From positions 1 to 32,355 of the forward strand of contig NZ_JAAALN010000020.1 of the NCBI RefSeq assembly GCF_009906795.1: a DNA stretch of 32,355 nt. Direction: 5' to 3'. This stretch comes from Kineococcus siccus (GTDB lineage Bacteria; Actinomycetota; Actinomycetes; Actinomycetales; Kineococcaceae). Below the pieces are notes generated by a model, which saw nothing but the letters and a program-made list of their open reading frames with translations, was not told the DNA's origin and ran no database searches. Positions 15,527-19,962 of this stretch are shown one piece after another (position 1 is the stretch's first letter; each line of letters begins with the position of its first letter). Made by a program: the position numbers and the translations under genes.

Positions 15527-16359
15527 ACGATGTCCGCGAAGGCCTGCTCGGAGCGCTGGAAGTACCAGACGCCGCTGACCAGCAGGAGGAGCACGACGAC
15601 GGCGCCGGTCACCACGGACCAGGTGGACGCCGGTGTCCCGAGGAGCACCCAGCGCCCCGTGTTGATGACCCCGGCCATCGGGTTGACGGCGTGCAGCCAC
15701 TCGAGGCGACGGGGCAGGGCCTCGGTCGCGTAGACGACGGGGCTCGCGAACAACCACAGCTGCAGGCCCGGTCCCAGTGCGTGCTTGACGTCGCGGTAGC
15801 GGACGTTCAGCGCCGAGAGCCACAGGCAGACACCGGCGGCGGTCGCCACCAGCAGCAGGAGCCAGACCGGGGCGAGGAGCAGGTGCCAGGTCGGTCCGGC
15901 GCCGTAGGCGATCGCCAGAAGGGCGAGCAGGACCAGCCCCACGACCAGGTCGACCAGGGGGGGGACGAGGGCCGACACCGGCGCCACGAGGCGCGGGAAG
16001 TGCACCTTCGTGATCAGCGACGCGTTGTCGACCAGCACCAGGCTGCCCTGACTCACGACCGTCGAGAAGTACGTCCAGCTCACGAGGCCGGCGAGCGCGA
16101 AGAGGGGGTACGGCACAGTTCCCGTGTCGCTGCGGGCGATGTAGCGGAACACCAGGGTGAAGACGAGGACCGACGCGATCGGCTGGGCCGCCACCCAGAG
16201 CAGTCCGAGTGCGGCCTGCTTGTACCGCACGCGGAGGTCGCGCACGGCGAAGAACAGCACGAGTTCGCGGGCTGACCACAGAGCGCGAAGGGATTGGAAC
16301 GGTGTGCCACGACCAGCTGAGTTCTCCGTCCAGGTCGCCGCGGGCGGAGAAGACGTCAC
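15523..16359 (-). CDS. wzm: Polysaccharide ABC exporter permease (ABC-2 type, Wzm-like)
   Basis: A 278-residue integral membrane protein with six likely helices. It has the ABC-2 exporter pattern: a cytoplasmic N-terminal segment with RDLRVRYKQAALGLLW, a central VHFPRLVAPVSALVPPLVDL coupling region, and a C-terminal SPVVYATEALP...NPMAGVINTGRWVLLG block. It forms the channel partner of the downstream ATPase, with which it overlaps by 4 bp. The start is a GTG at 16359. AGGA lies 7 nt upstream, but the same bases form TAGGAT, so translation may be leaderless. Confidence 0.92.
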   Translation of the reverse strand: MTSSPPAATWTENSAGRGTPFQSLRALWSARELVLFFAVRDLRVRYKQAALGLLWVAAQPIASVLVFTLVFRYIARSDTGTVPYPLFALAGLVSWTYFSTVVSQGSLVLVDNASLITKVHFPRLVAPVSALVPPLVDLVVGLVLLALLAIAYGAGPTWHLLLAPVWLLLLVATAAGVCLWLSALNVRYRDVKHALGPGLQLWLFASPVVYATEALPRRLEWLHAVNPMAGVINTGRWVLLGTPASTWSVVTGAVVVLLLLVSGVWYFQRSEQAFADIV

Positions 16360-16365
16360 GCCGTC

Positions 16366-17654: not shown

Positions 17655-18773
17655 TCAGGCCCTGCGCTGCGACACCGACCGGTAGAGCCGGTCGTAGGCG
17701 GTCGCCATCACCGTGTCCGAGTGCCCGGCGTCGGCGACGGCCCGGGCCTGAGCCGAGAGGCGGGCCCGCAGGGCGTCGTCACCGAGGACGCGCCGGCACG
17801 CGTGCGCCAGGCGTGCGGGGTCCCCCGGGGGGACGAGGAGACCGGTCCGCCCGTCGACGACGATCTCCGGCACACCGCCCACCGCCGTGGCGACCACCGG
17901 CACGCCGGCCCGCATCGCCTCCAGCAGCGACAAGGGCATGGCCTCGTGCCGCGACGGCAGCACGAGCGCGTCCACCTCGTGCAGCAGCTCGTGCGGGTGC
18001 CCGGCGCGCCCTCGGAACCGCACGCGGTCGGCGACGCCGAGCGTCGCGGCCAGGTCGAGCAGCTCGGCGCTGAGACTGCCCTCACCCGCGATGTCCAGCC
18101 GGGCGCCCGGCACGGCCCGCAACGCCTCGAGCGCGACGTCGATGCCCTTCTGGTGCTCGAGGCGCGCGAGGACACCGAGGACCTTCGGCTCCCGTCGTGC
18201 GGTGGCGGGCGCGGGCGGTGGGGCGGGCACCCCGTTGGGGATCGTCACGACGCTGCCCGGGCGCAGTCCCGCGCACTCCTCGACCAGGCGGGCCGCCGTG
18301 ACGCTGACGGCGACGTTGGTGACGCGGCCCGTCGTGACGGCGCGCTGCACCGAGCGCCCCCGCCAGCTGAGACCTGTCTCGGGCAGGTGGTCGACGACGA
18401 CCGTGGGGAGCCGGAGCAGCCGGGCCGCCAGGAGCGCGTCGCGGCTGCTCGTCAGGGCCGCGCGGTTGACGTGGACCACGTCGGGCCGGTGCTCCCGCAG
18501 CGCCCGCGCCCACCGCGGGACACCGCCGCTCACGACCTCGGTGCGGCTGCGCGGCCGGCGGTGCACCGCACCCGTGAGCACGGCCGGCGAAGCGCCCAGC
18601 ACCGTGACGTCCACCGCCGGGGGCAGGGCGCCGAGCAGGTACTGCAGGAACACCTCGGCGCCGCCGACGGTGTGCGCGCCGGTCACGACGCACACCCGGT
18701 ACGGCGCACCCGCGTCCCGCTCCGCCACCGTCGCTCCCGTCACCGTCGCTCCCGTCACCGTCGCTCCCGTCAC
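17655..18773 (-). CDS. GT4-family glycosyltransferase with start-site repeat
   Basis: A retaining GT-B glycosyltransferase of up to 372 residues, cytoplasmic or membrane-peripheral, adding a sugar from a nucleotide donor to the lipid-linked glycan. The N-domain has GGAEVFLQYLL and a DVVHVNRAAL strand. The C-domain has VLARLEHQKGIDVALEAL, AGEGSL and the donor-site EX7E motif EAMPLSLLE near residue 275. The start is uncertain: four in-frame GTG codons at 18773, 18758, 18743 and 18728 lie in a 15-bp tandem repeat, each of the last three preceded by GGGAG at 5-nt spacing. The shortest form begins at AERDAGAPYRVCVV. It follows another GT4 gene on the same strand by about 40 bp. Donor and acceptor are unknown. 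Confidence 0.9.
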   Translation of the reverse strand: MTGATVTGATVTGATVAERDAGAPYRVCVVTGAHTVGGAEVFLQYLLGALPPAVDVTVLGASPAVLTGAVHRRPRSRTEVVSGGVPRWARALREHRPDVVHVNRAALTSSRDALLAARLLRLPTVVVDHLPETGLSWRGRSVQRAVTTGRVTNVAVSVTAARLVEECAGLRPGSVVTIPNGVPAPPPAPATARREPKVLGVLARLEHQKGIDVALEALRAVPGARLDIAGEGSLSAELLDLAATLGVADRVRFRGRAGHPHELLHEVDALVLPSRHEAMPLSLLEAMRAGVPVVATAVGGVPEIVVDGRTGLLVPPGDPARLAHACRRVLGDDALRARLSAQARAVADAGHSDTVMATAYDRLYRSVSQRRA

Positions 18774-18775
18774 CG
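18726..18775 (-). repeat. 15-bp tandem repeat bearing ribosome binding site and start codon
   Basis: Three exact copies of a 15-bp unit (18726-18740, 18741-18755, 18756-18770) plus five bases of a fourth. Read on the minus strand, each unit holds GGGAG, five bases, then GTG, all in frame with the glycosyltransferase, encoding TGATV repeats. Confidence 0.9.
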
Positions 18776-18815: not shown

Positions 18816-19844
18816 TCAGCGCCCGGGGCCCACCGCGCGGACGTAGAGGGCCTCCAGCCGGCGCACGTGCTCGTCGAGGGTGAACTCCGACCGCTGCAGC
18901 TGCCGCAGCCGGCGGCCGTACTCCAGCCGCCGTCCGTCGTCGGACGTCAGCCGCCGCAGCGCGTCGGCCACGGCGGCGGCGTCACCCGGTGCGAAGAGCT
19001 CTGCGCCCGGCAGGCGGCCGACGGTCTCCAGGTGCCCGCCGGACGCGGCGGCCAGGACGGGGAGGGCTCGGGCCGCGGCTTCCAGGACCGTGAGGCCGAG
19101 CGGTTCGGCGGGAGCGGGCGCCAGCAACAGGCCGGCCCGTGCGTACAGACCCGCGACGTCGTCCACCCAGCCGAGGAACTCGACGTGCGCCGAGACGCCG
19201 AGCTCCGTGGCGAGGTGCTGCAGCGCAGGCTGTTCCTCGCCGCGCCCGGCGATCTGCAGGCGCCATCCGGCGTCCGCCACACCGCTGCGCGCGAAGCCCG
19301 CGATGGCCACCGATGTCTGCTTCTCGGCCGACAGCCGCTGGGCGACGAGGACCGTCCGCTCCCGCGGGTACCGGGGTTCCGGGGCGTCTGCCACCCCGTT
19401 GACGAGGACCTCGTCCGGTCGGCCCTCCGGCAGGCGTCCGGCGGTGAACTCGCTCACCGCGATCTCCGCGGCCAGGGCCCGGCGCACGCCGCGGGCGACG
19501 AGGCGCGCGGGGCCGGAGTACCCGCGCGAGTGGTTGATGTGCCGAGTGGAGAACCGTGCGGCGCGGGACCAGGGGGCCGCGGCGAGGGCGGCGAAGTCGG
19601 CCTTGGTGATGTGGCTGTGCACGACGTCGACTCGCCCCGCCGCGCGCAACGAGGTCAGGGCCTGACGCGGCGTGGCGCCCGGGGCCCAGCGCACCTCGGC
19701 CGGCAGCCGGTCACGCATGGCCGCGCGCTCACCACCCAGGACGAGCACCTCGTGCCCGCGGGCGGCCAGACCGCCGCTGACGTCCACCGCGTAGCGCTCC
19801 AGCCCGGAGAAGGTGTCCGTCGTCACCACGTGGACGATGCGCAC
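18816..19844 (-). CDS. GT4-family glycosyltransferase
   Basis: A 342-residue GT-B enzyme. The N-domain begins MRIVHVVTTDTFSGLERYAV and contains DVVHSHITKADFAAL. The C-domain has VLVAQRLSAEKQ, IAGRGEEQP and a donor-site EX7E motif EPLGLTVLE near residue 245. It probably elongates the lipid-linked repeat unit at the cytoplasmic face. I chose the GTG at 19844 because GGGGAGGT lies about 6 nt upstream and the first beta-strand begins at once; a longer reading to 19946 has no support. It lies 118 bp after a GT2 gene and about 40 bp before the next GT4, all co-directional. Donor sugar is unknown. Confidence 0.9.
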   Translation of the reverse strand: MRIVHVVTTDTFSGLERYAVDVSGGLAARGHEVLVLGGERAAMRDRLPAEVRWAPGATPRQALTSLRAAGRVDVVHSHITKADFAALAAAPWSRAARFSTRHINHSRGYSGPARLVARGVRRALAAEIAVSEFTAGRLPEGRPDEVLVNGVADAPEPRYPRERTVLVAQRLSAEKQTSVAIAGFARSGVADAGWRLQIAGRGEEQPALQHLATELGVSAHVEFLGWVDDVAGLYARAGLLLAPAPAEPLGLTVLEAAARALPVLAAASGGHLETVGRLPGAELFAPGDAAAVADALRRLTSDDGRRLEYGRRLRQLQRSEFTLDEHVRRLEALYVRAVGPGR

Positions 19845-19962
19845 CGCGCCACCTCCCCGACACCCGCCGAACGGGCTCCCTGAGCTCCTGCGGATCAGGC
19901 GGGTGCCCGGCCGCCTCGCGGGTCGGAACCCTACTACCGGGTCCACGTCCCGCCCCGCCGCC
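19845..19962 (-). promoter_or_regulatory. Gap inside the glycosyltransferase operon with possible promoter
   Basis: A 118-bp gap. On the minus strand TAGGGT (19933-19928) is -10-like, and AGGCGG (19897-19902) can pair with CCGCCT (19911-19916). An internal promoter or partial terminator is possible but not demonstrated. Confidence 0.25.

Follow-up and report, generated by a model that had tools for sequence, protein, structure and literature searches.

In-frame minisatellites at the N-termini of bacterial proteins are among the closest described counterparts of a tandem array found at the start of a glycosyltransferase gene in Kineococcus siccus. Both have a short unit with a length divisible by three, a few perfect copies, and a low-complexity peptide. 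By contrast, the units of the K. siccus array also carry the motif GGGAG and a GTG codon at workable spacing, so that copy number alters the count of possible starts. Egbert and Klavins reportedly tuned ribosome-binding sites in 2012 with engineered repeats whose length acted through the spacing between the Shine-Dalgarno sequence (SD) and the start codon. The array resembles that design in having a repeat number near the SD and the start but differs in that the whole SD and start are repeated and their spacing stays constant.

Mycobacterial interspersed repetitive units (MIRUs) are longer, dispersed elements. They are described as lying at start codons, carrying translation signals, and appearing mobile, with an ORF of their own that is coupled to the gene at −4 nt (PMC12548453). 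The array likewise places a repeat with translation signals at a start codon, but its unit pattern occurs at one place only. A MIRU-like dispersed element was rejected as a candidate, as the two-unit pattern is confined to the array within its own genome, both as an exact match and with up to three mismatches. The genes hmw1A and hmw2A of Haemophilus influenzae are preceded by seven-base units, present in 16–23 copies in named strains, and the number of units is reported to modulate expression, perhaps through transcription from two start sites (PMC2651432). The array shares with that system the tandem units, whose number modulates expression there, but its units are 15 bp long, few in number, and known from one sequence. 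Tandem repeats with an SD and a start codon in every unit are described in none of the matches listed in a search of open-licence titles and abstract openings.

The array is located in a stretch of 32,355 nt (contig NZ_JAAALN010000020.1; referred to as the window), where a direct reading of the minus strand from 18775 to 18726 shows a 15-bp period that is perfect over 50 bp: CGGTGACGGGAGCGACGGTGACGGGAGCGACGGTGACGGGAGCGACGGTG. The features of the region are as follows, with their basis given in parentheses.

18816 to 19946, minus strand: co-directed GT4-type glycosyltransferase gene, longest frame, with a called start at 19844 (frame, Pfam)
18726 to 18775, minus strand: 15-bp tandem array with the unit GTGACGGGAGCGACG, 3.3 units, perfect; encodes VTGAT three times followed by V (sequence, TRF, frame)
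18771 to 18773, minus strand: GTG1, in-frame start-type codon without a preceding GGGAG (sequence)
18764 to 18768, minus strand: GGGAG, Shine-Dalgarno-like, 5 bases 5' of GTG2 (sequence)
18756 to 18758, minus strand: GTG2, in frame (sequence)
18749 to 18753, minus strand: GGGAG, 5 bases 5' of GTG3 (sequence)
18741 to 18743, minus strand: GTG3, in frame (sequence)
18734 to 18738, minus strand: GGGAG, 5 bases 5' of GTG4 (sequence)
18726 to 18728, minus strand: GTG4, probable ancestral start, in gap-free alignment with the sole possible pre-core start of the orthologue in genome G001
17655 to 18728, minus strand: GT4-type glycosyltransferase gene, stop codon included; 357 aa from GTG4, 372 aa from GTG1 (frame, Pfam)

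The array holds four in-frame GTGs, whose first bases on the minus strand are 18773, 18758, 18743, and 18728, and three pairs of SD and GTG. Three of the five occurrences of GGGAG-N5-GTG on both strands of the window fall within it, and its TRF score of 102 is the highest in the window. The coordinates, the translation, and the Pfam match confirm the anatomy proposed in an earlier note on this DNA, which had described 15-bp units, each with GGGAG, five bases, and GTG in the frame of a glycosyltransferase. Antisense ORFs across the array were dropped as mechanical only.

The frame of the array continues into a glycosyltransferase with a match to the Pfam domain Glycos_transf_1 (E = 4e-38). Genes were classed as GT4-type if the domains Glycos_transf_1 and Glyco_transf_4 both exceeded their curated cut-offs, and this gene reaches 131.1 bits for PF00534 (cut-off 26.4) and 51 bits for PF13439 (cut-off 28.5). 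The locus is a polysaccharide cluster with several glycosyltransferases, an acyltransferase, and an exporter pair similar to Wzm/Wzt-type ABC transporters, with scores under the equivalog cut-offs. Variation in the expression of polysaccharide loci is known from other bacteria.

The array most probably represents a lineage-specific duplication of the start site by slippage, which is tolerated since initiation from the last copy is preserved and which is probably neutral. Replication slippage would have tandemly duplicated a 15-bp segment that happened to hold both the SD and the start codon of the glycosyltransferase gene. The extra units would sit upstream of GTG4, keeping the frame, and GTG4 would retain its own SD. 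Because GTG4 and its SD remain intact and the frame is not shifted, the gain or loss of units should do little harm, which would explain the tolerance of the array. If the upstream GTGs were used, they would give rise to protein variants extended by 5 or 10 residues (by 15 in the case of GTG1) with a tail of T, G, A, and V. Pairs of N-terminal proteoforms have been reported from Salmonella (PMC11005335). The perfect identity of the units could alternatively mean that change is recent or continuing.

The start of the gene before duplication can be approached through its relatives. The sole orthologue found in the genus, in G001, has 57% identity and lies in the same cluster with the same gene order. 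It has a single possible start before the conserved core, a GTG, and a TAG stop four codons upstream, which makes an N-terminal extension impossible. The distance to a shared YR is 11 residues both from this GTG and from GTG4 of the window gene. Since the single start of G001 matches GTG4, the repeat peptide appears to be non-ancestral, being either an addition of the lineage or untranslated, and GTG4 is probably the ancestral start, as judged from the alignment. Both starts are immediately preceded by GCGACG, a match that was noticed post hoc and that is seen in 3 of 1414 other called genes.

The two-unit pattern, allowing up to three mismatches, was found in its own genome only and is absent from 10 other genomes of the genus. 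The glycosyltransferase gene itself is missing from nine of these ten (E ≤ 1e-40), so that the absence of the pattern from those nine is uninformative. The array has the marks of a slippage-type array, namely head-to-tail near-identical units and restriction to a lineage: its units are perfect and occur in 1 of 11 genomes of the genus, of which one other has the gene. A search at the level of the order (396 genomes, E ≤ 1e-60) returned matches in two genomes, its own and G001, and a search at the level of the class (394 genomes, E ≤ 1e-50) returned five, its own and four others. The loci found in the class are L076, from another family, with 58% identity, and L077 to L080 with 42–44% identity; L076 and L080 lie in the same genome. 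All 40 loci from a search of Genome_contigs have a best-segment identity of at most 46%, and a search of plasmids at E ≤ 1e-40 gave no match to the glycosyltransferase.

L076 has candidate ATGs three codons upstream and four codons downstream of the position of GTG4 (50 codons inspected), which supports a start near GTG4 without fixing it. The nearest candidate start of L077 to L080 is downstream of GTG4 and directly precedes the first conserved hydrophobic stretch, and these loci were left out of the argument for an ancestral start. The lineage argument therefore draws mainly on one orthologue, that of G001, with L076 as loose support. The codon log-odds are −0.2 for one unit (five codons) and +3.62 for the first 15 codons from GTG4, with a mean of +0.43 per codon for the gene; our custom gene caller picked GTG2 in one run and GTG4 in another. 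The possibility that the units derive from a degenerate fourth copy among the first codons was rejected as not significant, since scores as good are reached by 34 of 967 genes starting with GTG and by 168 of 6361 randomly chosen GTG sites.

The abundance of tandem arrays in the genus bears on how the units may have arisen. Among arrays in 60 copies of the window generated by an order-3 Markov model, the best scores 88, below the 102 of the real array. Arrays scoring at least 100, including long-period and imperfect ones, number nine in 469,776 bases sampled from the rest of the same genome (38 stretches, picked by contig number, out of 4,580,277 bases in total) and seven in 400,000 bases of G001. 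Those with a period of at least 12, at least 3.3 copies, at least 93% match, and a score of at least 50 number four and five, respectively, in the same samples. The DNA of the genus is much richer in arrays than random sequence, and the array as such is ordinary because comparable arrays are frequent in the samples of the genus.

Near-perfect short arrays (score ≥70, match ≥90%, copies ≥2.6, period ≤60) number 45 in 1,702,131 bases from four genomes of the genus and the window, a count that depends on the TRF thresholds; L121 and L122, which are the window itself, were excluded from the array counts. Their period is divisible by three in 17 of 18 intragenic arrays, 4 of 5 at gene edges, and 10 of 22 intergenic ones. 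This intragenic bias would be expected from slippage combined with the purging of frameshifts. Arrays in the first codons with low-complexity tails also occur elsewhere, in L135 (15 bp) and L128 (18 bp) of the same genome and in L147 of genome G009 (15 bp), none of which has a start site in each unit. The presence of such repeat tails without starts points to a general origin and favours neutrality.

Seven of the 45 arrays, including that of the window, overlap a called start or lie within 30 nt of one, and the window's alone has an SD and a start in every unit, all in frame with the called gene. At L109, where the period of 16 does not keep the frame, two of four such pairs are in frame. Called genes with at least three in-frame pairs between −60 and +45 of the start number 5 of 1415, including the gene of the array. 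The frequencies of 1 in 45 arrays and 5 in 1415 genes are a counterpoint to neutral slippage; they depend on gene calls by a custom script (codon log-odds, greedy choice) and not by a standard caller, and the totals of 1415 and 1414 genes omit those shorter than 240 nt and those lying within 60 nt of the end of a stretch. The placement of the array is unusual, and its origin is probably ordinary.

Several of the other arrays show features of their own. The array of L135 (12702–12755) has a period of 15 bp, is located at the ATG called for a 162-aa gene, and encodes a TAGST-type tail. L139 of the same genome has a 20-bp unit in 3.2 copies with 100% identity between two called genes on the minus strand (16302–16364); its plus strand carries a row of tiny ORFs that run from ATG to TGA, overlap as ATGA, and have GGAGG upstream of their ATGs. 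The array of L109 in G001 (162–248) has a 16-bp unit in 5.4 copies with SD-like and start-like triplets upstream of a called gene, and it may be an on/off variant because each 16-bp unit shifts the frame.

The region upstream of the array differs between the two genomes. The end of the upstream glycosyltransferase gene is 42 nt away from GTG1 and 87 nt away from GTG4, and a pair coupled by termination-reinitiation, which would have an overlap or a very short gap, was rejected with gaps of this size. For six gene pairs in E. coli and Haloferax, a gap of about 20 nt is reported to nearly abolish coupling (PMC10666635), and coupling across 42–87 nt is unlikely. The gene is probably read from a promoter further upstream and initiated via its SD. 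The position is occupied in G001 by a divergent gene of 232 aa, methyltransferase-like as read from its translation, across a gap of 23 bp; at positions 18816–19946 the window has the glycosyltransferase gene in its stead, and the rest of the polysaccharide cluster is collinear. The 23-bp gap itself (L073:8937–8959) has a TANNNT motif at leaderless spacing on both sides, TAGCCT-6-GTG and TACTGT-7-GTG, the latter recognized by eye.

These differences bear on a second explanation of the array, which we regard as unlikely. A change of the upstream gene would have removed a leaderless-type promoter and made the glycosyltransferase gene the second gene of a transcript, after which the duplication would have supplied the missing SD and the array would have been kept for its usable start. 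A TANNNT near the start is described as a leaderless-type signal in actinobacteria, and the same source discusses switches between leaderless and SD-led starts in related actinobacterial genomes (PMC3160421). Consistent with such a change, TAGCCT lies six bases before the GTG of the G001 orthologue, next to the divergent gap, whereas the coding strand of the window lacks a TANNNT between positions −260 and +60 relative to GTG1. The motif is frequent in the genus, ending 5–8 nt before the start in 140 of 1414 called genes (150 have a TANNNT anywhere in the final 16 bases), and a search of the 10 other genomes of the genus for the upstream glycosyltransferase gene found no match at E ≤ 1e-30. 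However, a comparison of two genomes gives no order of events, and the change may have taken place in the lineage of G001. Moreover, the SD may have arrived with the exchanged segment, and a promoter of another type may serve the gene.

Tuning of the gene by copy number, which the earlier note had proposed beside a neutral N-terminal repeat, is improbable. Units would come and go at an appreciable rate, and each would act as an initiation site, so that expression of the glycosyltransferase changes stepwise. The neutral half of that proposal is the better supported; only the arrangement speaks for tuning, with a complete in-frame SD and GTG in each unit and a frame-keeping period, in a gene whose polysaccharide cluster includes the Wzm/Wzt-like exporter pair (under the equivalog cut-offs). 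Against it are the G001 orthologue without an array and the similar arrays scattered in the genus. A fast-changing array would also be expected to have more and shorter units than three of 15 bp.

The SD pairing of GTG1 to GTG4 amounts to −7.0 kcal/mol at each start, arising at GTG1 through a different pairing, and is middling compared with the 13 other ORF starts in a mechanical list of the window (+1.9 to −12.1 kcal/mol). Because the SD term is the same at every start, the sites are not separated by SD strength in a rough folding model, which combines unfolding and pairing and uses assumed values for the anti-SD tail and the scale factor. Its output rises from 0.011 for one copy to 0.102 for two, as tuning would have it, but is flat to slightly falling from two to six copies (0.102, 0.061, 0.054, 0.054, and 0.059). 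The model predicts no dial, although it is crude and cannot decide the matter. The RNA structure of the leader is not more stable than that of shuffled sequences (z = −0.45; equal or greater stability in 62 of 200 shuffles).

It is very improbable that both processes came together in an array of start-site cassettes, where the leaderless promoter would have been lost with the upstream exchange and the SD gained by duplication, and where three starts would provide redundant initiation, N-terminal isoforms that depend on the number of units, and frame-safe graded expression. Hardly credible are a direct-repeat operator for a regulator, with no TANNNT nearby and units that line up with the frame and the start codons, not with a promoter, and a copy number produced by assembly error, which a draft assembly of 495 contigs might suggest but which is at odds with a 50-bp array that is shorter than an ordinary read and lies in mid-contig.

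If the array is a neutral slippage duplication and nothing else, the start region of a gene tolerates tandem duplication as long as the last copy keeps working, and automated start calls on genes with such arrays are arbitrary. If the exchange of the start is true, the array would document a concrete shift of a gene from leaderless to SD-led initiation. If tuning is true, the array would be a frame-safe, graded counterpart to on/off phase variation.
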